A stretch of DNA of 64,000 bases, taken from Devosia sp. 67-54 (GTDB lineage Bacteria > Pseudomonadota > Alphaproteobacteria > Rhizobiales > Devosiaceae). Position 1 is the stretch's first letter. Each line of letters starts with the position of its first letter. The DNA lies in NCBI RefSeq assembly GCF_001899075.1, contig NZ_MKVA01000006.1:310001-374000 (forward strand). The letters are read 5' to 3'. Under the pieces are notes generated by a model. That model did not search any database. It was not told the DNA's origin and saw nothing but the letters and a program-made list of their open reading frames with translations. A program made the translations under genes and the position numbers. Positions 15,054-40,093 of the stretch are shown here, piece after piece.

Positions 15054-15063
15054 GGGCATTTGT

Positions 15064-16674: not shown

Positions 16675-16698
16675 CGCGCTTGACTCTCGTGTCTCAGA

Positions 16699-16733
16699 TG
16701 CTAATACGCATTAGCAGCTAATACGCATTAGCA
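16699..16733. promoter_or_regulatory. Tandem LacI-type operators
   Basis: The palindrome TGCTAATACGCATTAGCA at 16699-16716 is followed immediately by a second near-identical copy, GCTAATACGCATTAGC, at 16717-16732. Arms (GCTAAT/ATTAGC) are perfect around a 4-bp centre, and the two centres are 17 bp apart. They sit between the divergent SGNH gene and the LacI-family gene, 18 nt before the latter's start. Size, symmetry and position fit operators bound by that regulator, giving autoregulation and control of both flanking units. Confidence 0.82.
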
Positions 16734-16750
16734 GCAAGGGAGGATGAGGC

Positions 16751-19401: not shown

Positions 19402-19429
19402 AACGACGACACACAAAAGGAGGAAGGAA

Positions 19430-22467: not shown

Positions 22468-22469
22468 CC

Positions 22470-23458
<989 letters not shown>

Positions 23459-23462
<4 letters not shown>

Positions 23463-24160
23463 TCGAGGGCCGCATCCATGCCGCCATGCTTGCGGGCGAA
23501 TTTCCCGTGCTGGTTTCGCTCGGGCGGCACGACATCGAACTCGCGCAGGCGGCAGTCGATGCCGGGGCATTCGGGCTGAAGTTCCATCTCAACGCCTATC
23601 ACCGCGCCAGCGGCAACAGCTTCGGCTCGTTCACCGAGGAACGGCCGTTCATCGAGAAGCTCGCCCGGCTGGGCAAGCCCATGCTGGTGATGAGCGGGCA
23701 GGAGACGCAGCCCAGCCTCGCCGAGCTCGAGGCGCTGGCCGATTACGGCGTCGAAGGCTGGAACATCTATCTCAAGCACGTGCAGCCCTACATGTACGAG
23801 TCGCGGCTGCGGCCGATCCTCGCCCTCGACAGCGAAAGCGACGAGGCCGACCTGCGCCGCATCGCCGCCATTCCGGGCGCCATGCTGGAAGCCTCTGTCG
23901 GCCGCTTCGCCGACTACGGCGCGCCGCTGCTCGCAGCCGACCTCGCCCGCTACCGCGAGATCGTCGAGCAATCCGGCCTGCCGGTGATCGCTCCCAGCCA
24001 GAAGCGTTTCACCGCCGCCGACATGCCGCGCCTCCGCGCCGCCGGCATCGGCGCCATCCTGTGCGGCATCATCGTCACCGGCCTCGACCCGCACGCCGCC
24101 CGCGCCGCCCTGGAGCCCATCGTCGCCGCCGCTGCCGGCGCCGCGGCACCCCGCCCCTGA
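23459..24160 (+). CDS. Putative TIM-barrel enzyme of the sugar operon
   Basis: 233 residues. The alternating strand/helix pattern ('[35 protein letters not shown]', '[12 protein letters not shown]', '[36 protein letters not shown]') looks like a (beta/alpha)8 barrel with a C-terminal phosphate-binding Gly region. It is reminiscent of N-acetylmannosamine-6-phosphate 2-epimerase or aldolase-like barrels, but I cannot assign a family. It is the last gene of the operon, overlapping the ATPase stop by 4 nt, which suggests a catabolic step on the imported sugar. An Ala/Pro-rich tail ends the protein. Beyond it lie 75 bp and then the attL of the integrated element. Confidence 0.55.
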
Positions 24161-24234
24161 GCCGCGCCAGAAACACCACCACGCCCGCGGCGATGCCTCG
24201 CCGCGTGCGTCACAAGCTCTTGCCAATCAACGGA

Positions 24235-24262
24235 AAAATGGTGCTGCAAGAGGGCATTGAAC
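24235..24262. repeat. attL
   Basis: AAAATGGTGCTGCAAGAG (24235-24252) is identical to 40015-40032 at the tRNA-Thr end. The match extends to ATTGAAC with two mismatches, for 26 of 28 bases. It duplicates the tRNA's CCA end, acceptor strand and part of the T-arm without the rest of the gene, as expected for the displaced copy after site-specific integration. The integrase gene starts 145 bp inside. Confidence 0.88.
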
Positions 24263-24310
24263 AGCACTCTCACGCAACATCATAAGCATGCGAATGTAGA
24301 GAAATAGCTC

Positions 24311-24326
24311 AACCGCTTAAGCGGTT
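24311..24326. promoter_or_regulatory. 16-bp perfect palindrome between attL and integrase
   Basis: AACCGCTTAAGCGGTT is perfectly symmetric and lies 49 bp inside attL and about 80 bp before the integrase start. The position suits an arm-type site, an excisionase/AlpA site or an operator controlling the integrase. No function can be shown from sequence alone. Confidence 0.5.
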
Positions 24327-24407
24327 TAGGCGGATTTCTTCTGTCATTGACACGCACCCGCTCTCGCGCCATCACTTCCCGAAGTGTGGATTGACGTGGG
24401 GGTTGGT

Positions 24408-25610
24408 ATGGGCCGGGAAAGAGAGCGTCTCTCCGCCGTCGAGGTGCGCCAAAAGCCTGCCGGCAAATATGCCGATGGCGATGGGCTGTGGCTAATCAAG
24501 ACCGCGAAGGATCGCGGCAACTGGGTTCTCCGGCTGACCATCCACGGTCGGCAGCGCTACATGGGCCTAGGTTCGATTGCGAAGCGCTCGCTAGCTGACG
24601 CGCGCAAGGAAGCCGCGCGGTGGCGTACGGTGGCCCTCGACGGTCTTGACCCGATCGCCGAGCGCGAGCGGGAGATGCGGGACAAAAAGAAGGGCATGAC
24701 CCTCCTCAGGGACATCGCCCGCGAGGCTTTCGACGCTCGCAAGGCATCGTTGCGCGGCGGCGGCAAGGCGGGCAGGTGGTACACGCCGATCGAGCAGCAT
24801 GTGCTGCCGAAGCTCGGCGACAGGCCAATTGCCGGCCTCACGCAAGTTGATATCGAAAAGACGCTTAGACCAATTTGGCAATCGAAGGCCGACACCGCGC
24901 ACAAGGCGCTAACCCGGCTCGGCATGATCTTCGACTATGCGGCGGCGCACGATCTCAAGGTGGATCGCGATGTCGTTGCCAAGGCGCGGACCCTGCTGGG
25001 CGACCAAGTACACCAGGTCGAGAACATTCCCGCGATGCCTTGGGCGGAGGTCCCGGCATTCTATGCCTCGCTCAGCGACGGATCGACAGCGCACCTCGCG
25101 TTGCGCCTGCTGATCCTCACAGTCGTTCGATCAAGGCCGCTGCGGTTCATCCATGAGAGCCAGATTAGTGGCAACGTCTGGACCGTGCCGGCCGGCATGA
25201 TGAAGGGCCGAGAGGGAAAGGCAGAGGAATTTCGAGTGGCCCTCTCGTCGGAAGCTCTCAAGGTTATCGATCAGGCTCGAGCTCGCGCGCTGGATGGTTT
25301 CCTGTTCCCCAACGTCCGGAAGGGGGTGATATCCGACGCCACGATGATTCGGTTGATGGAGCGACGCGGCATGGTCGCCCGTCCGCACGGCTTCCGCGCC
25401 AGCATGCGCACATGGCTTTCCGAGGCGACGGATGCGCCGCATGCGGTTGCTGAGACGATCCTTCAGCACAAAGTGGCCGGCTCCGTCGAGGCCGCTTACA
25501 ACCGGACGAAATATATCGAACAGCGGCGAATCTACATGGAGCGCTGGGCCAACTTTGTGACCGGCAAGGCTGATGCCGATGTGGTGCGCCTAGTTCAGAC
25601 GGCGGCCTAG
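24408..25610 (+). CDS. int: Tyrosine-type site-specific integrase (P4/DUF4102 class)
   Basis: 400 residues from ATG 24408 (GTG 24384 is an alternative); GGGGGTT lies just upstream. The N-terminal arm-binding domain is 'LSAVEVRQKPAGKYADGDGLWLIKTAKDRGNWVLRLTIHGRQRYMGLGS', then a core-binding domain. In the catalytic domain I see Arg in 'LILTVVRSRPLRF', Lys near 'MMKGREGKAEEF', the HxxR box 'RPHGFRASMRTW', His in 'ETILQHKVAGSV' and the nucleophile Tyr in 'EAAYNRTKY'. It would recombine the tRNA-Thr att sites. The Arg region reads RSRPLR instead of the more usual RxGEL, a small oddity. Confidence 0.93.
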   Translation: MGRERERLSAVEVRQKPAGKYADGDGLWLIKTAKDRGNWVLRLTIHGRQRYMGLGSIAKRSLADARKEAARWRTVALDGLDPIAEREREMRDKKKGMTLLRDIAREAFDARKASLRGGGKAGRWYTPIEQHVLPKLGDRPIAGLTQVDIEKTLRPIWQSKADTAHKALTRLGMIFDYAAAHDLKVDRDVVAKARTLLGDQVHQVENIPAMPWAEVPAFYASLSDGSTAHLALRLLILTVVRSRPLRFIHESQISGNVWTVPAGMMKGREGKAEEFRVALSSEALKVIDQARARALDGFLFPNVRKGVISDATMIRLMERRGMVARPHGFRASMRTWLSEATDAPHAVAETILQHKVAGSVEAAYNRTKYIEQRRIYMERWANFVTGKADADVVRLVQTAA

Positions 25611-25632
25611 TTGATGGCGCATGCGCTATCAA
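25611..25632. promoter_or_regulatory. 22-bp near-perfect palindrome after integrase stop
   Basis: TTGATGGCGCA followed by TGCGCTATCAA, starting on the base after the integrase stop codon. The arms pair at 10 of 11 positions. No U-tract follows, so a terminator is not certain; it may be a binding site for the AlpA-like regulator encoded 75 bp downstream. Confidence 0.4.
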
Positions 25633-25706
25633 ACTCGACCCTGTGCACGGTAGAAACTGTTTGCCGGTAGCGATCTCCAGATCAACTCTCATGAAGAGGA
25701 CTCTGG

Positions 25707-25910
25707 ATGACGAATGCTGCACCCGATGTACTGCTAAGGCCCCGCGAGGTTACGGCCGCCTTAGGCATCTCTGAAGCCACCCTCTGGCGACGCGTCAAGA
25801 ACGGCGTCCTGCCTCGTCCGGTCAAGTTCGGCGTCTCCAGCAGGTGGCCTCAGTCCGAGATTGCGGGGCTCATCGAGTCCCTGAAATCCAAGCGGACGGG
25901 GGCGAACTGA
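25707..25910 (+). CDS. AlpA-family HTH regulator/excisionase (first of two)
   Basis: 67 residues. 'LLRPREVTAALGISEATLWRRVKNGVLPRPVKFGVSSRWPQSEIAGLIESLKSK' is the winged MerR-like HTH of the AlpA family: a helix with SEATLWRRV, then PRPVK and RWPQSEI in the wing. In P4-like elements AlpA-type proteins activate integrase or act as excisionase. Its place next to the integrase supports such a role. The stop overlaps the next ATG (TGATG). A second AlpA-like gene lies at 36246. Confidence 0.85.
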   Translation: MTNAAPDVLLRPREVTAALGISEATLWRRVKNGVLPRPVKFGVSSRWPQSEIAGLIESLKSKRTGAN

Positions 25911-26680
25911 TGATCGGCACGCAAGAAATCGACCGGCAGATCGCCGATATTGACCAGCGTGTCACCGGCCTGAAGGCCGAGCTCGACGGCCTGGCGTTCG
26001 CCGCCGTCAACGGCGATCCCGACGCCAAGTCGAAGGTGACCGGGATCCGCGCGGACATTGCGACCGCCGCCGCCGATCGTGACATGTTGGAGGTCGCGCG
26101 GGTCGAAGCCGAACGCCTGGAAGATGAGCAGCGGCGGCGGGACGAAGCCGAGGCGCGGCGCGTTGCCCGCGAGAACCTTCGCGAGGCCGTGCGCCCGCTG
26201 ATCGCGAAGGCTGAAGAAGTCGCCGGCCAGATCGAAGCGTTGCGCGCCATGATTGCTGATCTTGAGCGGCTTCAGATCGAGGCCAACCGCGCTCACGTGA
26301 AGGCGGGGAAGCCGCTGGAGCATCGCAGCTTCATCGACGCGGCGGCGCGCGAGGCCGTGCGGCGCGTCGGGTCCATGTTCGATCCGTTTGCCCAACTCAC
26401 CCCACTCGGCGATGTCGTCTCGGGTGCCTGGGAACCACTGTTCGAGCGCGACGATGCTGATTTCGAGCACGAGGCAGTGCGCCAGATGGGGGCAGCGGCG
26501 ATTCCGCCGAAGACGCCAGAGGAACATGCCGCCGACCTTGCCGCCGAATATGAGACGGCCCGGCGTGCCCGTGAAGCCTATGAGGCCGAACCGCTCTCGG
26601 AGCCGACGAGCCAGTCCCGGCACTCCAACTATGTCCGGCCGCAGGAGCAGGATTTCGCGAAGATGGGAGACGACGAATGA
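25910..26680 (+). CDS. Coiled-coil protein of unknown function
   Basis: 256 residues from ATG 25910, overlapping the AlpA-like stop by one base. Residues about 5-135 are strongly charged heptad-like sequence ('RQIADIDQRVTGLKAELDG', 'RDMLEVARVEAERLEDEQRRRDEAEARRVARENLREAV'), a long coiled coil. The rest ('SFIDAAAREAVRRVGSMFDPFAQLTPLGDVVSGAW') may be globular. I do not recognise the family. It leads the unit that continues into the three large virion-type genes, all with overlapping starts and stops, so it may be a minor virion or assembly protein, or only co-transcribed with them. Confidence 0.65.
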   Translation: MIGTQEIDRQIADIDQRVTGLKAELDGLAFAAVNGDPDAKSKVTGIRADIATAAADRDMLEVARVEAERLEDEQRRRDEAEARRVARENLREAVRPLIAKAEEVAGQIEALRAMIADLERLQIEANRAHVKAGKPLEHRSFIDAAAREAVRRVGSMFDPFAQLTPLGDVVSGAWEPLFERDDADFEHEAVRQMGAAAIPPKTPEEHAADLAAEYETARRAREAYEAEPLSEPTSQSRHSNYVRPQEQDFAKMGDDE

Positions 26681-27018
26681 GCAGCTTCAATTTGCCGGCC
26701 GCCCGGATCGCTGCCGCAAAGTCGAAGGCAGCGCAGTACATCGACCTCGCCGCCAAATGCGACGCGCTGATTGCTTCGCTCCTCGATCTGGTGGGTGAGG
26801 TCGAAGCCCTGGAGCGTGCCGCCGATGACGATCTGCGCGGCGGTGTAGACGATCGCGGGGAACAAGCACCACGGTTCGGCTCGCACACCGGCCGCTTGTC
26901 GTCGGCATTCCGGCTCCGGGTCGCGCGCGTCGCCAGCGTCCACGGAACCGTAGAGCCCGATGAATTGGTGCAGATTGCACAACGCGCCGTCCATGCCGTG
27001 CAGGATATGAGTGCCTGA
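26677..27018 (+). CDS. Hypothetical protein of the element
   Basis: 113 residues, not recognised. Mostly helical Ala-rich sequence ('SSFNLPAARIAAAKSKAAQYIDLAAKCDALIASLLDLVGEVEALERAADDDLRGG'). It overlaps the gene before by 4 nt (ATGA) and the next by one base (TGATG), so it belongs to the putative ejection-protein transcription unit. No signal peptide or membrane helix is seen. Confidence 0.6.
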   Translation: MSSFNLPAARIAAAKSKAAQYIDLAAKCDALIASLLDLVGEVEALERAADDDLRGGVDDRGEQAPRFGSHTGRLSSAFRLRVARVASVHGTVEPDELVQIAQRAVHAVQDMSA

Positions 27019-29360
27019 TGCCCACCGTTCCAACCTACGAGCGACAGGTCAGCCCGCGGCCGATCCTCCAGCAGAGCCTTACGACACAAGCATCGCCAGC
27101 GGCGTTCGGCGCTGATGTTGCGCGCGGCATCGGAAGCGTTGGGCAGGGATTGCTGGATGCCTCGCAGGCGGCAGGCCATGTTCGCACCCTGGAGGACAAC
27201 GCGGCGGCCCAGGATGCTGAGGTCGAGTATTCGAACTGGCTTCGCGAACGGACATACGGCGATGGTGGATTTCTCACGCTGAGCGGTGCGGCGGCAGTCG
27301 ACGGACAAAAGCAGTTTCAGCGCGATCTTGATACCCAGCAGCTTGCGATTTCGAGCAAACTGGCCGGCCGCCCCGGTGCGCAGAACGCATTCAAACTCGC
27401 GACGGAAAGCCGCAAGCTGTCGATCCTTCAGGATGCCGCCGTCCATGTTGCGAGCGAAAGGAAGGCATGGATCGTCAACGCTGCATCGGCGCGTGCGATC
27501 AGCTTCGCCGAGGACGCCGCCGACGCTTGGCAGAACCCAACCAAAGTGCAGGAAAGCATCGCGGCCGGGCTGAAGCAACTCGACCAACAGGCCGCCTTGC
27601 AAGGATGGGGCGCTGACCTGCTGAAGCAGAAGGCCGCCACTTACCGATCGGCGGTGATGGGCAGCGTGCTCCTCAACCAGGCCCAGGCCGATCCGGTCGC
27701 GGCCGCCAGCTATTTGTTCGCGCATCCCGACGAACTGACGGCGCAGGACAGCATGGAGGTCTGGAACCGTATTTCGACACCGTTGCGTGCCGCCGCCGCG
27801 CAGGGTGCGACAATCACTGCCGATGGGTCGATCAAGTTCAGCGATGCCGCATCGGCGCTGCTGGACAAGATGCCGGACGCCATTGGGCGCGAGCTTCGCG
27901 ATGGTGTCGCGCAGGAACTCGTGCGGCAGCGTACTGCTCTTGCCGAGGAGGCGAAGGTCGAGCGGGCGCAACATAGGGACGCAGTGACGCTCGGTATCGT
28001 CACAGGCAAGGTTGCGAGCGAAGAAACGATTCTCCGCGACCCGATGCTGGACGATGGCGACAAGGCTACGCTGATCGGCAAGTTCCGTAGCGAGCAGGGG
28101 GCGACTGCCGGCGCGCGCGACTTCCTCGGCAAGCTCGGCGTCGGCACGGCTCCGACGCTGAACCCATATGACGGTGCCGACCAGGCGCTTTCGGAAAAGT
28201 CCTATGGGCTGCTGATACAGTCCGTGCCGGCAGAACAGCAGGCGAGCGCGACGGCGCAGTTCGTCGCCGAAACCGGCATGGTGCCGAAGGCCGTTGTTGC
28301 CAGTGTCCGGCTCGGCCTCAATTCCAACGACAAAGGCAAGGTGGCGGCTGCGCTCCAGCAGTCGGCGGCGCTCGCCGACACTGCGCCGAACGCACTTGCG
28401 GCAATGGATCACGGCAAGGAATTGCTCGATGCCGCCGCGACATTTTCGGAGCTTGTCGACGGGCAGGGCAAGAGCGTCGAGGAGGCCGCGACGTTCGTTG
28501 TCGATCAGCGCAACCCCGCGAAGAAGGCCGAAGCCCAGGTGCTCAAGGATGGCTGGACGAAAGCCGCCAAGAGCTTTGCGGTCAGCGACGTGCTCGCGGC
28601 GTTCGGCGACAACTGGTTGCCGGGCGGTCCGGTCGCCGGCCTCAACCCCGGTCAGGAGGCGGCTTTGACCGCGGACTATCTCGGGGCGGCCGAGCGCGCG
28701 TTCACTGGTCCAGCGCATGGCGATGCCAATATCGCCAAGACGATGGCGTTGCAGGAAATGCATCGCGCATATGGCATCTCGTCGGTGTCCGGCCAGCCGG
28801 TGATCACGAAATTTCCGCCGGAGAATTTTTACCCGGCGATCGACGGCTCGCAGTCATACATCCGCGACCTGGCGATGAAGGACGCTCGCTCGATCGTGCC
28901 CAACGCCACAAACGTCATGCTGGTCGCGACACCGGAAACGGCGCAGGACGTGCGCGCCGGCCAGCCGCCTCGGTACAATTTGATGTATCAACTTCCCAGC
29001 GGAGTTTGGGACATGGTGCCGTCAATGTTCGCGGTTAGCGGCGATGAACTGCGGCAGCTTTCGGCGCTGAGCGCCGAGGAACACCAAATTCTGTTCGAAG
29101 GCCACCGGGCGCACGATTCGGCCGAACACGGAAACGGCCTGCCGGCCAACAGCGTCACGGCAATCCCGTTGCTGATCTGGAACCGCATCCTATCCGCGCC
29201 TCTGAAGGGCGACGATGTTCGCGCCGCTGCCCTCGCCGATGTGCAGCGTCGCCGCTCGCAATTGTTGGGCGCGCCGGCCGCCCCGTACCCGATGTCGCCT
29301 GATCTGCAACAGCGGCTCGCCGACTATCAGGCCAAGAACGGTTTCGGGGGTGCTCAATGA
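27018..29360 (+). CDS. Phage internal-virion/ejection-type protein (T7 gp15-like size)
   Basis: 780 residues. The start 'PTVPTYERQVSPRPILQQSLTTQASPAAFGADVARGIGSVGQGLLDASQAA' and the segment 'ERTYGDGGFLTLSGAAAVDGQKQFQRDLDTQQLAISSKLAG' are features I associate with large structural proteins of podovirus-like phages encoded beside a still larger partner. Sequence is mainly helical and Ala-rich, without membrane segments. Gene order and size (780 then 1402 residues) parallel T7 gp15/gp16, which form the tube that carries DNA across the envelope. This is a structural analogy; homology must be tested. Its stop overlaps the next start (ATGA). Confidence 0.6.
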   Translation: MPTVPTYERQVSPRPILQQSLTTQASPAAFGADVARGIGSVGQGLLDASQAAGHVRTLEDNAAAQDAEVEYSNWLRERTYGDGGFLTLSGAAAVDGQKQFQRDLDTQQLAISSKLAGRPGAQNAFKLATESRKLSILQDAAVHVASERKAWIVNAASARAISFAEDAADAWQNPTKVQESIAAGLKQLDQQAALQGWGADLLKQKAATYRSAVMGSVLLNQAQADPVAAASYLFAHPDELTAQDSMEVWNRISTPLRAAAAQGATITADGSIKFSDAASALLDKMPDAIGRELRDGVAQELVRQRTALAEEAKVERAQHRDAVTLGIVTGKVASEETILRDPMLDDGDKATLIGKFRSEQGATAGARDFLGKLGVGTAPTLNPYDGADQALSEKSYGLLIQSVPAEQQASATAQFVAETGMVPKAVVASVRLGLNSNDKGKVAAALQQSAALADTAPNALAAMDHGKELLDAAATFSELVDGQGKSVEEAATFVVDQRNPAKKAEAQVLKDGWTKAAKSFAVSDVLAAFGDNWLPGGPVAGLNPGQEAALTADYLGAAERAFTGPAHGDANIAKTMALQEMHRAYGISSVSGQPVITKFPPENFYPAIDGSQSYIRDLAMKDARSIVPNATNVMLVATPETAQDVRAGQPPRYNLMYQLPSGVWDMVPSMFAVSGDELRQLSALSAEEHQILFEGHRAHDSAEHGNGLPANSVTAIPLLIWNRILSAPLKGDDVRAAALADVQRRRSQLLGAPAAPYPMSPDLQQRLADYQAKNGFGGAQ

Positions 29361-32300
29361 GTCTGGTTCCGCGGCCCGCGCCTTCGCTGTTCGACCCGAA
29401 CGCGCAGGCCATCATCGACATGTCGCCGTCTGCCGAGCCTGCTGCGCCTGGTGCGCTCGACTTGATAGGCGCGGCGTTCCGGCAGGAAAATATTGTCGGT
29501 TCGATCCTCGCACGTCATCGCGCAGATGGCACGCCCGATCCGACTTACAACCCGTGGGCGGACATCAAGGACACGCCCTATGAGGCCCATTGGGATCGCT
29601 TCACCGGCTCGACCAATGCCGGCGAGACGGCCGCCCTGAAGGCCCAGATCGACATGGAGCAGTCCGATCGCAACACCATCGCGGCAGCGGGCGGCTGGGG
29701 CATGCTCGCAACGCTCGGGGCTGGCCTGTTCTCGCCGGAAAACCTCCTGCCGGCCGGCGAAATCTATCGCAGCGCCAAGGGCGGCGAGGCGGTGTTACGC
29801 TCGGCGCTCAGCGGGGCGTCGTATGGCGCGATGTCGGCGGCGCTGGGCGAAAGCGCGCTGGCCGGCTCGCAGGAACTCCGCACCCCGCAGGACAGCGCCA
29901 TCGGCATCGGCAGTGCCGCGCTGCTTGGCGGCGTTCTGGGTGGCGGGCTGTCGGCTATGTTCTCGCGCGCCGACTTCGCGCGCCTCGCCGCCCAGATGGC
30001 TGACGAATCTGTGCACGCGGTCGACTCGGGCGCGCTCGCCGCCAACGAGGCGGCCATGTTCACCCGGCCGGGCCCTTCGTCGGCCGGTGCTGCTGCGAGG
30101 CCTGTTGCCAGCCTCGATGAAAATTCGATCGCTGGCCGGGCCGCGCAGATCGCCGGTGGCGCGGTGCGCAATCTCAATCCGGTGTTGCGCGCCTTGCATT
30201 CGCCCTCGGCGATCATGCGCGACGTGGCGACGCGCCTGTTTGAAAATCCCGTCTACATGAAGAAAAACCTCGAAGGCGTCGCCTCCGATCCCGGCGTTGA
30301 AACGCTGGTCAAGGAATACACCCGCGGCGCGGTGTCGAAGGCGATGGAGGCCGCGAATGCCGCTTATGGGGACTATCGGAAAGCTGGCGGGCAAATGTCG
30401 CGCGGCGACTTCAACGCTGCGGTCGGCAAGGCGATGCGGCGGGGCGATACATCGGCCGATCCCCATGTTACGAAAGCCGCGACGGCGTGGCGGTCTGCGG
30501 TTTTTGATCCGCTGAAACAGAAGGCGATCGAGGCTAGACTTCTGCCGGCAGATGTGCAGCCCGAGACGGCGCTCAGCTACTTCACGCGCGTCTATAACCG
30601 CCCCAGGATCGAGGCCCGCGAGGCCCAGTTCAAAGGCATTGTGCGCCGCTATATCGACCGGTCCATCCGCTCGCTGGAAATGCGCCGCGATGAAATCGAC
30701 ATGGGCAACCGGATCGTCACCGCCGACGCCGCGGCCGAGCGGCTGGCGGCCTCGCATGAGCGGCTGTCGCGGCTCGATGCGCGGCTGGCCGATCGGGCGG
30801 CAGTTCGTCGCCGCAAGCTCACCGAGCTTCAGGATGTCGAACAGCAGCGGTTCATGGCGAACCAGGAGCGCCCCCCGGCCGAACTGGCGCGCCTGCTGCG
30901 CAACGCCGATCAGAACAGCCACATGCTCACCACACTGCGCGAGGCGCGGGCGGCACGGCGATCGGCCGCGGCTAAGGCTCCGTTTCACGAACGCTCGCCG
31001 ATCCTCGCGATGGTCAAGCGGAAGGGCGGCGTGCGTGTTGGCTCCACGCTCGACGGCGAGCTTCGCGCGATGGGCGTTACGCCGACGACGCATCCGGGGC
31101 TGTTCCGCAGCAATGGCGGCCTCGGCCGGCTCGACAACCTCGCATGGGACGAGGAGCCAGCGATTTTTGAGAATCTGCCGGCAGGTGCTGACGGCTATGC
31201 CGATGAGCGGGCGGTGATGGACGCCATCCGCGAGGAGCTCGCCGGCAATCCGCTGCGCACGCATGAGCAGCGCACCGCAGAGGCGAATGCCGATGCGCTC
31301 TCGTCTTGGGCCGAGGAATGGCTTCACCGGCTTGGGCTCGCATCCGACACCACGGTCGGCGCGGCGCGGGGGGTAGTGCGCAAAATTGTGGGGGCGGAAG
31401 CGCATGCTGATGATCTGGTCGCGCGTGGCGAGCGGTTGACGCGCGAGCTTCAGGCGTTCGATGAGGCGACCGAAGCGCTGTCCAGTGAGCGGTTGATCTC
31501 CGCTGAAGAAGCCCGCACCGCGGGGGAGGAAGTCCAGCGCCTAAACGAGGAAATCATCCGGGCGCAGCAATTCGCCAACGCCTCGCCGGCCGTGTCGATC
31601 ATGGTGGACTATGCCAAGGTGCGGCGCGACCTGTTCAAGGCCCGGATGCGTGAACGCGACCTCGGCCGCCGTGTCGAAGCGCTCACCGCGATCCGCGACA
31701 GCGGTCGAGCCAACGACGCCATGCTGGCTGATCTCTGGGCGAAGACCGAGGACCTGACGCGTGTCGGCGATCAGGTGCAGCGGCTGGTTGCGCGGGTTGA
31801 AAAGCTTCAGCCCAAGGTGCCGAAGCTGCGGCAGGAATTGCCGGAGTTTTTGAATGAGGCGGATCGAGCCGACTACATCAGCGAGGTCGTGGACAACATC
31901 TTCAATTCCGTCACCGGTCGAAATGTCGATGGCGATGTGCCGCGCGACATTGTTGCGGCCACACGCGGGCCGCTCAGAGAGCGCACGTTCCATATCCCCG
32001 ATTCGGAAATCGAGGATTTCCTTGAGCATGATGTCGAGGCGATCGGCCGGCGCTACGCCCGCGTGATGGCGTCAGACATTGAGCTCACCAAGGCCTTCGG
32101 GCGGGCCGATCTGCGCGACCAGATCGACGCGGTGAAGCGCCAATACGGGGATCTGCGACGGGCGATCGAAGACGGCATCGATCCGCATACCGGCGAAGTC
32201 TTGGCGATGCAGTTGACTCAGCGCCAGAGGCTTGCAGCGGTGCGGCGGCTGGTTGCGCGCGAGAAGAACGATATCCAGGACTTGCGCGCCCTCCGCGATA

Positions 32301-33565: not shown

Positions 33566-33574
33566 GGGGACCGC

Positions 33575-35215
33575 ATGGCGACAACGACACAAGACCTGCT
33601 CGACTTCATCGGCTGGCACGAGGCGCGCGGGAACTACAACGCTTATTATGGTCATGCCGCAAACCAGCTGGTCGATTTCTCGAAGATGACGGTTGCCGAG
33701 GTCCGCCAGTGGCAGCGCGACTACCTAGCGGCCGGCTCGCCATCGTCGGCTGTCGGAAAATACCAGATCGTCTCGAAGACGCTGAAGTCCCTTGTGCGGG
33801 CCGGCGTTGTTTCGAACAGCGACAAATTCGATGCCGCGACCCAGGACAAGCTTGGCGCGGCCCTGCTGCGGGCGCGCGGCTATGACCAGTATGCGGCCGG
33901 CAAGATCAGCGCCGAGGCTTTCGGCAACCGCCTGGCACGCGAATGGGCCGCCCTGCCGGTGCTGACCGGCGCGAGCGCGGGACGTTCATACTACGCGGGC
34001 GACGGTTTGAACCGAGCTCACACCACTGTCGGAGCGGTGCTGTCGCTGCTCAACGGGCATCCGACGCCGGAAGCCTACATCCCCGAAAGCCGCGTTGCGT
34101 CCGAGCTCGACGTGTCGCGGCCGACCTCGCTGGCTCAACTCATCGCAGGCGGTGCCGGAGCGTCCAGCGTGCCGTTGCCGCGGCCCCGCCCGCTGTTCGC
34201 ACCCCTGCCGGCCCCGGAGCCGCTGAGGCCGCCTGTGGCATCGCCGCCAGCGACGATCCTCGGCGGCGCGGCGCTAACTGGCAAGGCGGCGCGCCCTGCC
34301 GCCGTCAGCACGATCCTTGGCGGGGGCAGCGGCGTGTCCAATGCCGGCGTCTCCTCGGGCCGCAAGCTGCCGAACCCGACCGCGAGTGAAGCCCGCGCCG
34401 AACAGGCGCTTGGGCGCAAGGCCGCAGCGACGCCGGCTGCGCGGTCGATCGTGCCGGCGCTCGGCCGCTCGGCTGAACAGGTGGCGCGCGATGAGCAGAA
34501 CGCGATCCAGTCCGGATACCGTGCGGTCCAGGAGGGCAACTTCCCGGCCGCACCGAACGCGCCGAAGCAGCCGACCACCACGACGCCGGTCGCCGCCTTG
34601 AGCCAGCCCAGCGGCGTGCAGAAGTCGACCACGGTCTATGTGCGGCCGGACGGGGCGACGCGGACGGTCGACCTGGCCGGCAGTGTGCAGATGGCAAAAG
34701 CGATCGCCGCGCCAACGCTCGCCGAGACGCGCGCCGAGCAGTCGATCGCGCGCAGCGCGCTGACCCGCACTATCACAGTCGAGGAGGACAACCCCGAATA
34801 TTACGACTGGCTACACACCTACGCCAACGCCTCGGGCTCGCCCGACGATCGCGATGCGCGCTCCGCGATGTCGAAGCTCGCGCTCGGCATTGCTGGCGGC
34901 GTAGCTGCTCGCATGCCGGCCGCGCCGCCGCGGAGGATCACTGTCACCAAGACCGTGCCGGTCCATGCCAGCACCGCGCCTGCGGCGAACCGTTTAAGCG
35001 TTCAGCAGCAGCTTGCGGCTCAACAGGCGGCGAAGGCGCGCGCGGCCATCCTGTCCGCCTACACGCAAGCCGCGCGGTCGAGCATGCCGCAGGCCGGGCA
35101 GACCATCATGACCGAAAACAATGGGGCGCAGATCGTCGGCTCGCGCCTGAATGGGTCCGAACGCGGCTACACGGTGACGAACGACAATTGGTTCAACAGC
35201 GTGCGCGGGCTGTAG
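33575..35215 (+). CDS. Muramidase-like protein with long Ala/Pro-rich tail
   Basis: 546 residues. The first 155 or so look like a lysozyme-superfamily domain: 'DLLDFIGWHEARGNYNAYYGHAANQLVDFSKMTVAEVRQWQ' with a candidate catalytic Glu in 'WHEARGNYNAYYG', then 'SSAVGKYQIVSKTLKSLV' and 'YYAGDGLNRAHTTVGAVLSLL'. The remainder is low-complexity linker with two related blocks ('EARAEQALGRKAA', 'ETRAEQSIARSA') and a more ordered end ('MTENNGAQIVGSRLNGSERGYTVTNDNW'). No signal peptide or holin is seen, so a virion-borne wall-opening enzyme is more likely than a lysis endolysin. Begins 9 nt after the 1402-residue gene. Confidence 0.65.
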   Translation: MATTTQDLLDFIGWHEARGNYNAYYGHAANQLVDFSKMTVAEVRQWQRDYLAAGSPSSAVGKYQIVSKTLKSLVRAGVVSNSDKFDAATQDKLGAALLRARGYDQYAAGKISAEAFGNRLAREWAALPVLTGASAGRSYYAGDGLNRAHTTVGAVLSLLNGHPTPEAYIPESRVASELDVSRPTSLAQLIAGGAGASSVPLPRPRPLFAPLPAPEPLRPPVASPPATILGGAALTGKAARPAAVSTILGGGSGVSNAGVSSGRKLPNPTASEARAEQALGRKAAATPAARSIVPALGRSAEQVARDEQNAIQSGYRAVQEGNFPAAPNAPKQPTTTTPVAALSQPSGVQKSTTVYVRPDGATRTVDLAGSVQMAKAIAAPTLAETRAEQSIARSALTRTITVEEDNPEYYDWLHTYANASGSPDDRDARSAMSKLALGIAGGVAARMPAAPPRRITVTKTVPVHASTAPAANRLSVQQQLAAQQAAKARAAILSAYTQAARSSMPQAGQTIMTENNGAQIVGSRLNGSERGYTVTNDNWFNSVRGL

Positions 35216-35240
35216 CGTTGCGAAAAATGCTGCGGTTCAC

Positions 35241-35582
35241 ATGGATCGCATCAAAATTGCGCAACAGAATCAATCGCTTGTGCGCGTTTTCGAAAAGCGA
35301 TATCCCTTGGGAATGAAAACAGTGTTCTTGCTCATGGCTCAATATGACGGCCGCGCGATTATCCCGGCCGAGCTTGTCGCTCGAGACTATTTCCCGCACC
35401 TGGACACCGCGCGGTTCGTCCGCAAGGTCAACGATGGCGACATTACGATTCCGTTGGTGCGGATCGAGGCCAGCCAAAAGTCGGCCATGGGCGTGCACGT
35501 GCAGGACTTGGCCGACTATATCGACAAGCGTCGCGAGGCAGCGCGCAAAGAGTGCGAGCAGCTGACCGGGCGGAAACTCTAA
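35241..35582 (+). CDS. PrtN-like (pyocin activator family) transcription factor
   Basis: 113 residues. 'MKTVFLLMAQYDGRAIIPAELVARDYFPHLDTARFVRKVNDGDITIPLVRIEASQKSAMGVHVQDLADYIDKRREAARKE' matches the pyocin activator PrtN family in length and key stretches. In Pseudomonas PrtN switches on pyocin structural genes and is itself repressed by PrtR. Here it follows the virion-type genes by 25 nt and overlaps tail-to-tail (4 nt) with an XRE-type repressor on the other strand, an arrangement reminiscent of the prtN/prtR switch. Likely the positive late regulator of the element. Confidence 0.82.
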   Translation: MDRIKIAQQNQSLVRVFEKRYPLGMKTVFLLMAQYDGRAIIPAELVARDYFPHLDTARFVRKVNDGDITIPLVRIEASQKSAMGVHVQDLADYIDKRREAARKECEQLTGRKL

Positions 35583-35821
35583 TCCGATCGCACGGCCTTC
35601 CCTCGGCCGTTCTCAGCCATGAACTTCACGCCGGCCGCTTCCAAGGCGCTGGCGATCGCCGCGATCTTCTCCGCTGACACGGGTGTGGCTGGATTGGACC
35701 TTGCGGTCACCGATTCGGCACGGCGCACCGTCACGACAGATACGCCCGCAAGTTCCGCGATCTCCTCTTGCGACCTTCCGAGCAGGATTCTAGCGGCGTG
35801 CAATGAAACCGCGGATTGCAT
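35579..35821 (-). CDS. XRE-family HTH repressor of the element
   Basis: 80 residues from ATG 35821, preceded by GAGGG; a longer frame reaches 35884 but that extension would cover the operator region. HTH: 'ARILLGRSQEEIAELAGVSVVTVRRAESV' (residues 8-36). The rest ('VSAEKIAAIASALEAAGVKFMAENGRGKAVRSD') is the short helical tail usual for such small Cro/CI-like repressors. No LexA-type peptidase domain, so induction must work differently from lambda. It faces a divergent gene at 35906 across a cluster of inverted repeats. Confidence 0.82.
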   Translation of the reverse strand: MQSAVSLHAARILLGRSQEEIAELAGVSVVTVRRAESVTARSNPATPVSAEKIAAIASALEAAGVKFMAENGRGKAVRSD

Positions 35822-35829
35822 TTTCCCTC

Positions 35830-35865
35830 TTGATATCAAATTATCAACTGATATGATCTTATCAG
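35830..35865. promoter_or_regulatory. Operator cluster overlapping a sigma70-like promoter
   Basis: Three symmetric elements overlap or follow closely: TTGATATCAA (35830-35839), TATCAACTGATA (35842-35853) and CTGATA-6bp-TATCAG (35848-35865). All contain the half-site TGATA. On the plus strand TTGATA (35830-35835) and TATGAT (35852-35857) are 16 bp apart, a credible -35/-10 pair driving the gene at 35906, so a bound repressor would block it. The repressor's own start is at 35821. Most likely the genetic switch region of the element. Confidence 0.68.
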
Positions 35866-35905
35866 TCGACACGACTTGTCGCAATAGCCAAGCGGAGCAT
35901 AGAAA

Positions 35906-36163
35906 GTGGCAAAGACCGATCTCACCAATTCCTCATATCGCGTAGCGTTGCTCACGGGCATCGAGCTTCTCGAGGCGCTGATCGCCGAGGCCGACGCAAT
36001 CGACGCGATCCCCGCCGACACTCCCGTTGCGCGCGAGTTCACGATAATCAGCGCGGCCGGCCGTCCCGCACGGAAAATTGCTAAGAAGCTCGCGGCGGCC
36101 GATCGTAGCTGCGCGATCGTCGTTGGCGATCTGGCCGAAATGGCGGCGCGGCTCGCGGCGTGA
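35906..36163 (+). CDS. Hypothetical small protein, first gene of the element's early unit
   Basis: 85 residues, not recognised: 'AKTDLTNSSYRVALLTGIELLEALIAEADAIDAIPADTPVAREFTIISAAGRPARKIAKKLAAADRSCAIVVGDLAEMAARLAA'-type helical sequence. An AAAGTGG stretch precedes the ATG. It lies downstream of the operator cluster, divergent from the repressor, the place of Cro or an early regulator in temperate phages, but no HTH is apparent. Confidence 0.6.
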   Translation: MAKTDLTNSSYRVALLTGIELLEALIAEADAIDAIPADTPVAREFTIISAAGRPARKIAKKLAAADRSCAIVVGDLAEMAARLAA

Positions 36164-36194
36164 GGCCGTTTGACCACGAAACTATTCGCGGCGC

Positions 36195-36233
36195 TGATTG
36201 GTCTATGCGGACAATGTCTGCATAGACCAATCA
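36195..36233. promoter_or_regulatory. 39-bp extended palindrome
   Basis: Arms TGATTGGTCTATGCGGACA (36195-36213) and TGTCTGCATAGACCAATCA (36215-36233) flank a single central A at 36214; 18 of 19 positions pair, the exception being a G/T. Ends 12 nt before the ATG of the second AlpA-like gene. No U-tract. A symmetric site this long fits an operator for a dimer pair, a replication or packaging site, or an RNA hairpin that controls translation of the downstream gene. Confidence 0.65.
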
Positions 36234-36245
36234 TGGAGATTGAGC

Positions 36246-36431
36246 ATGGCGGAGCGAGTTTTGATGTCAACCGATGACGTTCGGCGCATCGTGCCGGGCT
36301 GCGACCGGACATTTTCTCGACGCATCGCGAGAGGCGATTTTCCCAAGCCAATTTTGATTGGCCATCGTCGTCACTGGTACCGGGAAGAAATTGAACGCTG
36401 GCTTACCGAAAAGGCAGCGGCGACAGCATGA
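36246..36431 (+). CDS. AlpA-like HTH protein (second of two)
   Basis: 61 residues from ATG 36246, with GGAG 7-10 nt upstream; a longer frame to 36198 would run through the palindrome. 'LMSTDDVRRIVPGCDRTFSRRIARGDFPKPILIGHRRHWYREEIERWLTEKAAA' shows the AlpA/MerR-like HTH with the PKP...RRHWYREEIERWL wing. Only distantly like the first AlpA-like protein (25707). It may regulate the helicase-terminase unit or act as excisionase. Confidence 0.8.
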   Translation: MAERVLMSTDDVRRIVPGCDRTFSRRIARGDFPKPILIGHRRHWYREEIERWLTEKAAATA

Positions 36432-36438
36432 TGGAACG

Positions 36439-36523
36439 GCCGGGCCAAAAAACACAGGCCCGGCGCACTTAATGGCCGGGCCCGGTGGTATCGAAAATGA
36501 TTGAGCCCTTTTCCAATACCACC
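36439..36523. other. Two hairpins between AlpA-like gene and downstream unit
   Basis: Hairpin 1: GCCGGGCC (36439-36446) and GGCCCGGC (36457-36464), 8 bp perfect with an A-rich loop. Hairpin 2: GGTGGTAT (36484-36491) and ATACCACC (36516-36523), with further GAAAA/TTTTC pairing inside. No clear U-tract after either. They may attenuate transcription between the second AlpA-like gene and the next genes. Confidence 0.5.
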
Positions 36524-36546
36524 ACGTTGCCAGGATTGCAACACCG

Positions 36547-36879
36547 ATGGTGGATAGAATGGAAAACGCACATTATAGTGAAACGCGGTCCTACTCGGAT
36601 AGCCTGATCGATCGCATCGACGCACTCGAAGCATGGGGCACAGCCCCGGTCGCGGTGCACGAAGCCCTTGAGCGGTGCCGCGCAGACATTGAATTTGCGG
36701 CCCGATGGGCTCCGTTGCCCGATGATTTCACTCCCGCCGACCTGTCGCGGATCGCTCGTCGCAAACGCTCGTTGATGCGCGGCGTCTGGGCGATGAGCCC
36801 ACCGCGTCGGGCATACTTGGCGCGCTGTCTACTTGCTCTGGCCGACAGAACAATCTCACGGGCGGAGGCGGCGTCATGA
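36547..36879 (+). CDS. Hypothetical protein of the element
   Basis: 110 residues (an internal ATG at 36559 is an alternative start). Not recognised. Composition is normal for a soluble helical protein: 'SDSLIDRIDALEAWGTAPVAVHEALERCRADIEFAARWAPLPDDFTPADLSRIARRKRSLMRGVW'. Overlaps the next gene by 4 nt (ATGA), so it is part of the unit leading to the helicase gene. Confidence 0.6.
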   Translation: MVDRMENAHYSETRSYSDSLIDRIDALEAWGTAPVAVHEALERCRADIEFAARWAPLPDDFTPADLSRIARRKRSLMRGVWAMSPPRRAYLARCLLALADRTISRAEAAS

Positions 36880-37271
36880 CCGACAGTCTTTCCATCGGTA
36901 TCCCGCGGCTGGACAAGCTCGCCGCGCGCATCCGGGCGCTAGTCCCGCACGTCGCCGAACTGCCACTGCCGGCCGCGATCGAACCGGAGGGCGAAGGCCA
37001 GCTTTGCGACGCATGGCTGCTGGCGCGGCTCGAGGAGCTGCCCTGGGTCGCCAGGACTTGCGGTGGCGTGGCGGGGCGGTTCGTTCGCCCCAATTTCGGC
37101 AACCGCACCACGGCCGAGCGCTTCGCAAACGGCGTCATCGACATGACGATCGGCGCCAGCGACGCGACCCGCAATTCGGTGCTGGCGGACGCTGCGGCCG
37201 CCCTGCTGCTCGCGATCGAGACCGGCGTTGAGGCAATCGAGGATGTGTCGCCGGGGCGCGTCCTTCATTGA
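36876..37271 (+). CDS. Hypothetical protein of the element
   Basis: 131 residues, no family recognised. Contains 'GIPRLDKLAARIRALVPHVAELPLPAAIE', a 'LPWVARTCGGVAGRFVRPNFGNRTTAERFANGVID' stretch and an Ala-rich helix 'NSVLADAAAALLLAIETGVEAIED'. Translationally linked on both sides: ATGA with the gene before, TTGA with the helicase gene after. Probably an accessory to replication, by position only. Confidence 0.6.
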   Translation: MTDSLSIGIPRLDKLAARIRALVPHVAELPLPAAIEPEGEGQLCDAWLLARLEELPWVARTCGGVAGRFVRPNFGNRTTAERFANGVIDMTIGASDATRNSVLADAAAALLLAIETGVEAIEDVSPGRVLH

Positions 37272-38986
37272 ATCCTCCATACGCACCCGAGGACTGGCGC
37301 AGCGGCAAGTTGCCTCCCGAGGGGTGGGATGTGGCCGACGCCGTTGATGATGGCTGGACGCGTGACGATGTGGACGCGATGCTGCGCGCATCGATCTGCG
37401 ACGTGCTGCCGAACCGCGTCGGGCGGGACAAGACGGGGCGCTTGCGGCTGAAAGCCCACATCGCCCTGTCTGAAGCTGCGAACGGAAACCCGCCAGCGCC
37501 GACGCGGCGCGCCGCACCACAGACGATGCAGAAAACCCAGCCGGCGAGGCCCCCGCTGCCAGCAGTGCGTGCGCCTCTGGCCGCAATAGAGGCTTTGCCG
37601 CATGTGCTGGAAGTCGGCTTTGATAGCGAGGTTTTTCTAGCGAACCACCTGGCGCACCGGCTGGCGGCGGCCTGCGGTGAGGTTGTGTTCGCCGAGGGGC
37701 AATTTTGGTGCTGGGGGCCGACTGCCTGGTCTGCGATACCTCATCAGGTGATGCGGCTCAGCGTTCACAAGTTCGATTTAGCGGCGTCTGGCCGGAAAAA
37801 CGTCAAAGTGGGCAAGACGCTGATAAATGGCGTGCTGTCGGAGCTCGGCACAATCCTTGCCCAGCCCGACTTCTTTGCTGAGCCGGCTGTGGGCCTCAAT
37901 GCACGCAACACGGTGATCGAGATCGATGGCGCAGGCCGCGTCACCGAGCGAGCGCACAGCCCTTCCGATCGCTTCCGGTGGACGATCCCGGCCGAGTTTC
38001 ACTTGCATACCGACGTGGTGCCGCCTGAAGGCTCGATGCTGCATCGGCTGCTCGCCGGTTCGTTCCGCGGGGATCCTGATGCGGCGCAAAAAATCGACCT
38101 GATCGGCGAAATCCTCGCGAGTGCCGCCTTTGGGCAGGCCACGCGCTTGCCGCAGCCTAAAGCCTTCGTCTTCCTTGGCGAGAAGGCCAACAACGGAAAG
38201 TCGACCATTGCCGGCCTGCTGCGCTGCCTGCTGCCCGAAGGGGCGGTATCCGCTGTCCCGCTGTCGGCTTTCGAGGATGAGAAGAGGGTGGTCGGGCTAG
38301 CTGGGAAGGCGGCCAACGTGGCCGACGAGTTATCGGCCAATGCGATCGGCGGCGAGGCATTCAAGTCGGCCGTAACCGGTAACGTGATGCAGGGAAGGGA
38401 CGTTTTTCAGAGTGTCCTGACATTCGTTCCCCAAGCCCTCCACCTGTTCACGACAAATGTTCTCCCACGCTTCTCAGGCGGCCTCGATCGGGGGCTTCAG
38501 CGGCGACTTGTCGTCGTCGGGTTCGATCGATCGATCCCTACAGACGAGGTCATCCCAGACATCCTCGATCGCATCCGGCGTGATGAACTTGACCTCCTAC
38601 TCGGCTTTGCCATTGCCGGGATGCAGCGGCTCATGCGCAACAAGAGCTATACGATCCCGCCATCATCCGTTGGCGCGTTGAATACCTGGCTCCAACTCGA
38701 CCCGGTGCAGGCGTGGTTCTCCGAAGAAGTGGTGCATCTCGGCGACGAGCCGTTCGACGGCTGGTCCAGAACGTCCGATCTGTTTAAGGCGTTCAAGATG
38801 TGGGCGATCGACAATGGTCACTCGGAACGCTTCCTGCCGCCAGTCAACACCTTCTCGCAGCGGCTGCGCGCCATGCCAGGCGTCCGCATCAAGCATCTGG
38901 GTCGCGGCAACGTCGCTGCTGGCATCGGTCTCCGCAAGTCGGGTGATGCGCCAATCGCACAAGTGACACATGGTGACGCACCATGA
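37268..38986 (+). CDS. P4/D5-type phage replicative helicase (SF3; possible primase)
   Basis: 572 residues from a TTG overlapping the previous stop. The C-terminal half is a superfamily 3 helicase as in phage P4 alpha and poxvirus D5: Walker A 'FLGEKANNGKST' (about 302-313), Walker B 'GKAANVADELSAN', motif C 'ALHLFTTNVLPRFSGGLDRGLQRRLVVVGFDRSI'. The region 'DFFAEPAVGLNARNTVIEID' before it fits the D5_N domain. The first 110 residues are short and Pro-rich; I see no primase active-site motif, so primase activity is uncertain. It would start autonomous replication after excision. A large inverted repeat lies just downstream. Confidence 0.85.
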   Translation: MNPPYAPEDWRSGKLPPEGWDVADAVDDGWTRDDVDAMLRASICDVLPNRVGRDKTGRLRLKAHIALSEAANGNPPAPTRRAAPQTMQKTQPARPPLPAVRAPLAAIEALPHVLEVGFDSEVFLANHLAHRLAAACGEVVFAEGQFWCWGPTAWSAIPHQVMRLSVHKFDLAASGRKNVKVGKTLINGVLSELGTILAQPDFFAEPAVGLNARNTVIEIDGAGRVTERAHSPSDRFRWTIPAEFHLHTDVVPPEGSMLHRLLAGSFRGDPDAAQKIDLIGEILASAAFGQATRLPQPKAFVFLGEKANNGKSTIAGLLRCLLPEGAVSAVPLSAFEDEKRVVGLAGKAANVADELSANAIGGEAFKSAVTGNVMQGRDVFQSVLTFVPQALHLFTTNVLPRFSGGLDRGLQRRLVVVGFDRSIPTDEVIPDILDRIRRDELDLLLGFAIAGMQRLMRNKSYTIPPSSVGALNTWLQLDPVQAWFSEEVVHLGDEPFDGWSRTSDLFKAFKMWAIDNGHSERFLPPVNTFSQRLRAMPGVRIKHLGRGNVAAGIGLRKSGDAPIAQVTHGDAP

Positions 38987-39013
38987 ACGGAGAAATCACA
39001 TACGGAGCGCGCA

Positions 39014-39132
39014 CTTATCTCGAAGTGAAGCATTTCGGCCTATATATATTCTATGAATAGAACGATGTTTGTAACGATGTTCCTATGCCTCGTATGGAGC
39101 TTAATATGAAAGCTGCTTCACTTCGAGATAAG
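39014..39132. repeat. 19-bp perfect inverted repeat around an AT-rich segment
   Basis: CTTATCTCGAAGTGAAGCA (39014-39032) is exactly inverted at 39114-39132. The 81-bp interior is markedly AT-rich (TATATATATTCTATGAAT) and contains the direct repeat AACGATGTT twice (39061-39069, 39073-39081). Located between the helicase and the small terminase genes. Candidate replication origin or packaging site; nothing else of note in this gap. Confidence 0.7.
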
Positions 39133-39240
39133 CTGATGATTATGCAGCAGAAATTTCTAATTGGAGTGCGTCACTCGTGCGTCACCCGCACGAACGCCCT
39201 GCGAGCCTCTTACCCCCGTAACAAACCGGAACAAATCGAT

Positions 39241-39735
39241 ATGACGCCCAAGCAAGAGCGGTTCGCCGCCGAGTACATCGTTGATCTGAACGCCACCGAG
39301 GCGGCCAAGCGCGCCGGCTACGGGCCGCGCGCGAGAGTGACAGCGAGCGAGCTTCTTGCGCTGCCGGATGTGCAGGCGCGCGTCGCCGAGTTGATGCGCG
39401 AGCGGGCGGAGCGGATCGAGCTTGATGGCGATCGCGTCCTGGCCGAGATCATGACAATGGCGTTCTATGATCCAGCCGACTACAAGGCTGTGAGCTCTGC
39501 GGAGGATATTGCTGCCTTGCCGGAGCGGGCGCGCCGAGCTGTGGTCGGCTGGGGCTTCGATCGAAACGGCCTCTTCGTGTTCAAGCTCGCCGACAAGTCC
39601 AAGGCGCTCGACCAGCTTGCCCGCCACCTGTCGCTCTACAACGACAAGCTGGAGGTCGGCGGGCTCGACGCGCTCGGCGATCGGCTGGAGCGAGCGAGGG
39701 CGCGTCAGCTTGCCTGGCGGCTAACCGTGAAGTGA
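39241..39735 (+). CDS. terS: Phage terminase small subunit
   Basis: 164 residues from ATG 39241. Start 'TPKQERFAAEYIVDLNATEAAKRAGYGPRARVTASELLALPDVQARVAELM' is the DNA-recognition HTH region of the Terminase_2 family, followed by 'VLAEIMTMAFYDPADYKAV' and 'LADKSKALDQLARHLSLYND'. A longer frame goes to 39085 but would cover the inverted repeat, and homologues as I recall begin at this Met. TerS recognises pac/cos DNA and delivers it to TerL. No terL follows: only 279 bp without a credible gene remain before attR. TerS without TerL is typical of phage satellites. Confidence 0.87.
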   Translation: MTPKQERFAAEYIVDLNATEAAKRAGYGPRARVTASELLALPDVQARVAELMRERAERIELDGDRVLAEIMTMAFYDPADYKAVSSAEDIAALPERARRAVVGWGFDRNGLFVFKLADKSKALDQLARHLSLYNDKLEVGGLDALGDRLERARARQLAWRLTVK

Positions 39736-40018
39736 AGACGAAAGAGGCCGCTGCCGAGTTCGAACTTACCGGGGCTAATTCCCTTAAAGGATTGCTGAAG
39801 CAATCTCACGGTCAGCGGCCAACCAGAGAAATACTTCCGGCCAGATGATGCTTCAAGAGGAACTGGAGACGGTGGTACCAACCTTGACGGAGATTTCGAT
39901 GTGGTGATGTTTCGGCATGGCGCACGACCATCGCTTGAGAAGATGTGGATCAGAACGGGGGTCGGCACTGTCAATCAAGCGCTAATGGCTTGTAAACACA
40001 CGACTATTTCGAAGAAAA

Positions 40019-40093
<75 letters not shown>

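Follow-up and report, generated by a model that had tools for sequence, protein, structure and literature searches.

P4-like phage satellites carry an integrase, AlpA, a primase-helicase and the Sid, Psu and Delta proteins, and occupy a tRNA site. The element studied here lies at positions 24235-40042 of a 64,000-nucleotide stretch of Devosia sp. 67-54 (assembly GCF_001899075.1, contig NZ_MKVA01000006.1, positions 310,001 to 374,000 of the forward strand; hereafter, the window). It shares the integrase, AlpA, primase-helicase and tRNA site with those satellites but differs in having a small terminase (TerS) and ejection proteins, and no family match named Sid, Psu or Delta was found among the window open reading frames (ORFs) scanned with Pfam and PHROGs. 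It also resembles phage-inducible chromosomal islands (PICIs), as these are commonly outlined, in its size, attachment (att) sites, integrase, AlpA-type regulator, primase-replication gene and TerS without a large terminase (TerL). However, half of its length encodes ejection proteins, among them an operon similar to T7 genes gp15 and gp16, so that it does not share the absence of virion structural genes that marks a PICI. Satellites in general have been described in PMC13376191 as elements of 7-20 kb that have genes for an integrase, for regulation and for replication but lack structural genes. The window element is att-bounded, encodes an integrase and has no full head, tail or packaging set; no match to large terminase, portal, capsid or tail-tube families was found in 21 of its ORFs with PHROGs or in 16 with Pfam, and it does not have the terL, portal, capsid and tail genes of a podoviral prophage.

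Satellites with virion proteins of their own have been reported previously. The capsid-forming PICIs (cfPICIs) and the Streptomyces satellites MulchRoom and MiniFlayer are alike in this respect (PMC10690885, in the part available), but theirs are a capsid, a portal and both terminases, whereas the window element combines TerS alone with ejection proteins. Charybdis elements are also suspected virus-satellites with few virion-like genes; unlike the window element, they are about 4.6 kb long, marine, have archaeal hosts and no terminase, and are unrelated by the gene content given in the accessible portion of PMC12324425. As far as these partial sources go, satellites known so far hijack the packaging of DNA or the assembly of heads, and a few supply capsids. 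Among mostly non-subscription papers, we found none that pairs phage satellites with ejection or internal virion proteins, and nothing of the kind was found for PICIs in those parts of the literature examined. We consider it probable that the window element is a PICI-like phage satellite carrying an ejectosome module, whose TerS would redirect helper packaging and which would supply its own ejection core. Its features are as follows.

24235-24262, no strand: attL, a copy of the tRNA-Thr 3' end (28-nt repeat, 93%)
24384-25610, + strand: tyrosine integrase, whose start may be 24408 (PF22022 and PF13356 above cut-off, PF00589 below; phrog_1, 1e-35)
25707-25910, + strand: AlpA-type regulator/excisionase (PF05930, 4e-6)
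25910-26680, + strand: coiled-coil protein of the orf278 family, shared among satellites (long helices in the model)
26677-27018, + strand: orf113, weakly orf278-like (E 0.005 to orf278; 4-nt overlap with orf278)
27018-29360, + strand: iv780, gp15-like ejectosome protein by its predicted fold (phrog_1044, 3e-22; AlphaFold2 model; PDB matches to T7 gp15/core)
29357-33565, + strand: iv1402, predicted gp16-like internal virion/ejection protein (phrog_342, 7e-104; phrog_16310, 4e-145)
33575-35215, + strand: iv546, with a lysozyme-like N-terminal part (phrog_18972, 5e-10; phrog_34252, 2e-8; phrog_430, 8e-7)
35241-35582, + strand: PrtN-type activator (PF11112, 3e-27)
35579-35884, - strand: HTH_3 regulator-like protein (PF01381, 2e-6)
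35906-36163, + strand: orf85, an open frame with no Pfam or PHROGs family matched
36198-36431, + strand: second AlpA/HTH_17-like protein (phrog_66, 1e-6; Pfam below cut-off)
36547-36879, + strand: orf110, no relative among the fetched loci
36876-37271, + strand: orf131, no relative among the fetched loci
37268-38986, + strand: primase-helicase, DUF5906 (PF19263, 2e-8; phrog_864, 1e-32)
39085-39735, + strand: small terminase TerS, whose start may be 39241 (phrog_51, 4e-36; PF03592, Terminase_2, 9e-31)
40015-40042, no strand: attR, at the 3' end of tRNA-Thr(GGT), 40019-40093, - strand (28-nt repeat and tRNA call)

The element measures 15.8 kb (15780 bp) between direct repeats that match at 93% over 28 nt and share 18 nt of exact identity, while, when 600 nt of the left end were shuffled 1000 times, the longest exact run against the right copy was 10 nt. 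The right repeat coincides with the 3' end of an intact tRNA-Thr(GGT), and the tRNA/EPSP (5-enolpyruvylshikimate-3-phosphate) synthase side of the site was matched in 18 of 19 genomes of the genus, the own genome included; no empty insertion site was shown, with no clear left-flank match within the short flanks searched. From left to right the genes run from the integrase and AlpA through orf278, orf113, iv780, iv1402 and iv546 to PrtN, the HTH gene on the reverse strand, small genes, the primase-helicase and TerS, and all 15 listed genes are open frames. The start and stop codons of orf278, orf113, iv780 and iv1402 overlap in series, as in a coupled operon, and iv780, iv1402 and iv546 together take up 8198 of the 15780 bp. 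An earlier note on this DNA had proposed an att-bounded 15.8-kb element with intact frames, an integrase, AlpA regulation, a replication helicase and a lone TerS without TerL, portal, capsid or tail, about 8 kb of it given to ejection-type genes, and each of these points agrees with the repeats, frames and family matches given here. Its "P4-type helicase" holds as a DUF5906 primase-helicase, while the P4 type was not confirmed.

The 8.2-kb block resembles the T7 gp14-gp15-gp16 ejectosome. iv1402 falls in the same PHROG as T7 gp16 (phrog_342, at 1354 bits for T7 gp16), with a match that begins at profile position 404 and leaves the transglycosylase end of gp16 unmatched; by this shared PHROG, iv1402 is classed as gp16-like. 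The AlphaFold2 model of iv780 (predicted local distance difference test score, pLDDT, 85) gave three Foldseek matches in the PDB below E 0.001, all to the T7 gp15 core or ejectosome (7k5c, 9jyy and 6yt5), at E 5e-4 to 8e-4 and near full length with low template modelling (TM) scores of 0.15-0.22. In addition, iv780 had no Pfam match and did not match phrog_1339, the PHROG of T7 gp15 itself, in the PHROGs scan. Because of the low TM-scores and the unmatched phrog_1339, the gp15 identity rests on structure, and iv780 is gp15-like by its predicted fold. A lysozyme domain is present in the iv780 relatives of Pleomorphomonas (PF00959) and Kaistia (PF18013), iv546 and iv1402 match tail-lysozyme and tape-measure profiles weakly in PHROGs, and a PDB profile search seeded with the gp16-like alignment returned nothing useful.

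Loci with gp16-like genes were collected from genome sets of the family (136 genomes, 9 matches), the order (397, 24), a second family (20, 8) and the class (385, 5), many of these matches being weak and the own genome being counted in the family, order and class sets. Furthermore, 80 loci were kept of 145 in IMG/VR and 20 came from a genome-contig collection, in which a single-protein query found 0 loci and an alignment query all 20. Structural genes beside these loci were sought by tblastn with reference proteins. All 62 IMG/VR loci with 6 kb upstream carry structural genes (19 of 81 were too short), whereas 16 of the 20 genome loci had 6 kb upstream (4 too short), 6 with structural genes and 10 without; the contrast arises partly by construction, because IMG/VR selects for viral hallmark genes. 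One of these 10, L255 from a Rhizobiaceae metagenome-assembled genome (MAG), more probably represents a genuine deletion derivative and serves as a contrast case to the satellites. It spans 1083-20659 at a tRNA-Thr(CGT) and holds an integrase, terS, terL (phrog_979) and a 5'-truncated gp16-like gene nested among Mesorhizobium phages in the tree. Nine satellite-like loci then remain, most of them examined over about 10 kb per side. Both ends were found in six, at four sites and with lengths of 12-21 kb:

L262 and L263, Pleomorphomonas NRK KF1 and JP5: tRNA-Thr(CGT), 19-nt exact repeat, 14.9 and 15.7 kb
L256, Kaistia adipata: comM, 21-nt exact repeat, 16.3 kb
L264, Magnetospirillum molischianum: tRNA-Ala, 45-nt exact repeat, 20.9 kb
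L259, Xanthobacter oligotrophicus: tRNA-Ala, 14-nt exact repeat (weaker case), 17.2 kb
L267, Hyphomicrobiaceae UBA7697: tRNA-Ser, 14-nt exact repeat (weaker case), 12.2 kb

When the Kaistia flanks are joined they give an open frame of the Mg-chelatase/comM family (PF01078), which we take to be comM. No second end was found for L261, the Pleomorphomonas-type element of MAG CTSoil_107, and the elements of L257 (a MAG) and L266 (a Rhodospirillaceae MAG) are not closed at both ends. The earlier note's satellite reading gains from these nine loci of other genomes, in which the ejection pair occurs and the search of the neighbourhood detected no portal, capsid or tail gene. Judging from gene content, a set of such putative ejection-bearing islands occurs in Alphaproteobacteria, and similar elements in related bacteria suggest that some phage satellites may bring their own injection machinery.

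TerS, orf278 and PrtN are common to the window, Kaistia, Xanthobacter and L257 elements, and a DUF5906 protein is also present in those of Kaistia and Xanthobacter. The orf278 search, which used a longer 278-aa frame starting at 25844, found relatives among the fetched loci only in the Kaistia, Xanthobacter and L257 elements and in none of the phage loci; there was no match in 50,697 phage records and no relative among 52 IMG/VR candidates. The orf278 family is the best mark of a shared backbone. In the window, Kaistia and L257 it lies ahead of the ejection pair and is separated from it by small genes; its model shows long helices, with no fold match below E 0.08. Over 174 residues the window TerS shares 50% identity with its L257 counterpart, and the integrase is 58-59% identical to those of Pleomorphomonas; a scan of IMG/VR with the window helicase found no relative. 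In other relatives the replication gene varies, with a DUF3987/Toprim protein in place of DUF5906 in the Pleomorphomonas element and other primase/helicase-type proteins in Magnetospirillum and the Rhodospirillaceae MAG. The own genome contains a second primase-helicase-like gene (G000:C8:181985-184435; 816 aa, 27% identical), whose neighbour looks by eye like a transposase; no structural reference protein matched in the 40 kb around it. In another genome of the genus, the region G093:C297, about 21600-38000, encodes an integrase, TerS, a helicase and a PrtN that is split over two frames, with glycosyltransferase-like genes between them by eye; no ejection genes were found in this region, which is perhaps a satellite without an ejection module.

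In the three Pleomorphomonas-type copies, the ratio of nonsynonymous to synonymous substitution rates (dN/dS) was 0.06-0.10 for the integrase and primase, 0.09-0.25 for the gp16-like gene and 0.13-0.30 for its gp15-like partner (dS across all element genes, 0.11-0.54), and it was 0.04-0.18 for four flanking chromosomal genes at dS 0.35-0.87. The ejection genes are therefore constrained, being under purifying selection but less so than most of their neighbours. Cargo slots of variable content are usual in satellites, and in L262, L263 and L261 the position after the primase is filled by unrelated sets of genes, lying between stretches that are 79-92% identical. One copy encodes proteins of 247 and 217 aa there (the latter methyltransferase-like, below cut-off), another a protein of 251 aa and the third a protein of 268 aa; these are candidates for anti-phage genes.

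For the phylogeny of the gp16-like protein, 129 places were reduced by 5 partial sequences, 7 named duplicates and near-identical phage rows to 94 C-terminal sequences for a quick tree, 37 of which entered a careful tree. The larger tree has 14 rows labelled satellite, including L255 and the short contigs without flanks L258, L260 and L220, and in it the satellite label changes 6 times; the Rhodospirillaceae, Magnetospirillum and UBA7697 copies are placed elsewhere among phages. This scattering indicates that ejection genes entered satellites several times or that satellites arose several times. In the careful tree, a phage-free clade of eight (95/93.5) unites Kaistia, Xanthobacter, L257, L258, L260 and the three Pleomorphomonas-type sequences. 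The window protein is sister (100/100) to that of G124, which is by gene content a complete prophage (TerS match; terL, phrog_979, 9e-65; PF12236 portal; PF19821 capsid; tail match), and the two are 55% identical over 1412 columns. Joining the window protein to the satellite clade was rejected by an approximately unbiased (AU) test (p 2e-53), with the caveat that the tested group had been named after the quick tree was seen. Since the window ejection pair groups with G124 while orf278 and TerS side with the satellites, the two parts have different histories, which we read as cassette exchange; the ejection cassette thus seems to have passed between satellite and podovirus.

Other arrangements of gp16-like genes were also seen. 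In four genomes of one genus (G385:C24, G350:C23, G487:C21 and G508:C248), the N-terminal 100-190 or so residues recur as 2-3 short nearby copies, some of them with an internal stop. The IMG/VR contig L209 (4869 bp) encodes TerS, a gp16-like protein and a small protein that contains an RGNPGRPKG motif; ahead of the gp16-like gene no gp15-like one was called. In the Pleomorphomonas and Rhodospirillaceae elements, proteins with a similar-looking motif are encoded close to the ejection genes, and those two are weakly linked (E 0.0009).

We propose the following mechanism. Once a podovirus helper infects the cell or induces the element, AlpA and Int would excise the element and the primase-helicase would replicate it, while PrtN may switch on its late genes. 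TerS together with the helper TerL would direct satellite DNA into helper heads, whose core would be entered by the gp15- and gp16-like proteins of the satellite, and these would form the DNA-delivery channel at the next infection. The likely gain would be independence from the helper ejection proteins, which could make the element compatible with several helpers, or with recipients that block the helper entry channel. The earlier note had suggested that such a module might replace the ejection apparatus of a helper and so alter which hosts can be entered. Ejection genes make up half of the element, are intact and seem to have been exchanged together as a pair; this suggests that they matter to transfer.

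Several observations weigh against this interpretation. No gp14-like protein was recognised in the window by the PHROGs scan, unlike in the T7 ejectosome, and among the relatives L266 of the Rhodospirillaceae MAG is the only one with a clear candidate (phrog_418). The backbone is uneven among the satellites. The window TerS is close to that of L257 alone; its identity to those of Kaistia and Xanthobacter (33-37%) is no better than to the best phage match (39%) or to two loci of the same genus (33-35%), and TerS was not recognised in the Pleomorphomonas, UBA7697 (among the proteins tried), Magnetospirillum and Rhodospirillaceae copies. The primase-helicase, at 24-28% to Kaistia and Xanthobacter, is no closer to them than to phage (29%), and it is 58% identical to that of G093, the same-genus region without ejection genes. 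The integrase reaches 55-57% in two IMG/VR contigs, and PrtN is 60-61% identical to satellite copies and up to 65% to phage ones. Moreover, the relatives were found through gp16-like similarity, which biases nearest-relative comparisons. No helper was identified; a podoviral portal of family PF12236 is missing from the own genome, so that a helper would come from outside. Of 10 bearer genomes, 4 have this portal at another place, compared with 41 of 297 genomes of the order, an excess that is not persuasive as a helper link because three bearers belong to one genus. A search of the own genome with PF03237 as the one terminase family used found a single large terminase, on another contig (G000:C3:358471-359064, with PF17289 too), which perhaps belongs to a gene transfer agent.

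The element could instead be the decaying remnant of a podoviral prophage from which a deletion removed the genes from terL to tail. Its ejection genes are phage-like and nearest to those of a complete prophage, L255 shows that such derivatives exist, and in Kaistia terS and orf278 stand directly before the ejection block, an order also obtainable by one internal deletion. We regard this as unlikely, since the same outline recurs across several genera and sites, with intact ends and frames, purifying selection in three relatives, a satellite-only gp16-like clade and an orf278 that is absent from the phage sets searched. In the window, moreover, terS lies behind the primase beside attR and not ahead of the ejection genes, and it is only 29% identical to the terS of G124, a prophage that has homologous ejection genes but a different overall gene order. 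A simple deletion prophage as the best reading of the window copy was set aside because of this gene order, the distant TerS and the recurring set, and a one-off deletion is unlikely. The case that would have told most strongly for it, a complete prophage relative with terL, portal and capsid between terS and attR, was not found among the material searched.

An equally improbable alternative is that the gp15- and gp16-like proteins poison helper ejection cores, or act as an internal core that biases head assembly to satellite DNA, and form no channel of their own. Satellites do interfere with helpers or remodel heads (PMC11389934 and PMC10690885), and dN/dS is higher in the ejection genes (0.09-0.30) than in the integrase and primase (0.06-0.10), but both proteins stay long and have lysozyme domains in two relatives (PF00959 and PF18013), as a working channel needs, and replacement of the pair from another phage lineage would fit compatibility better than poisoning. 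Less probable still is an island retained by the host, with the ejection proteins put to another use such as the exclusion of incoming phages. The variable slot, whose genes differ between the three related copies, would suit such a role, whereas PADLOC gave only weak matches (E 0.002 or worse) for two of ten proteins, the HTH gene and orf278, and the window retains integrase, TerS and att repeats.

Beyond the reading of the window element as a satellite with its own ejectosome module, we tentatively suggest, at somewhat less than even chance, that an alphaproteobacterial satellite family swaps ejectosome cassettes with podoviruses and loads its own injection core into the heads of helpers, so that the satellite and not the helper controls envelope crossing. 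If true, envelope crossing would be a host-range step separate from adsorption and under satellite control, and a satellite that brings injection machinery would uncouple the entry of DNA from the other functions of the particle. Such satellites would provide a natural experiment on the role of ejection proteins in setting host range or exclusion, and would add a recognisable alphaproteobacterial class that capsid-based detection would overlook.

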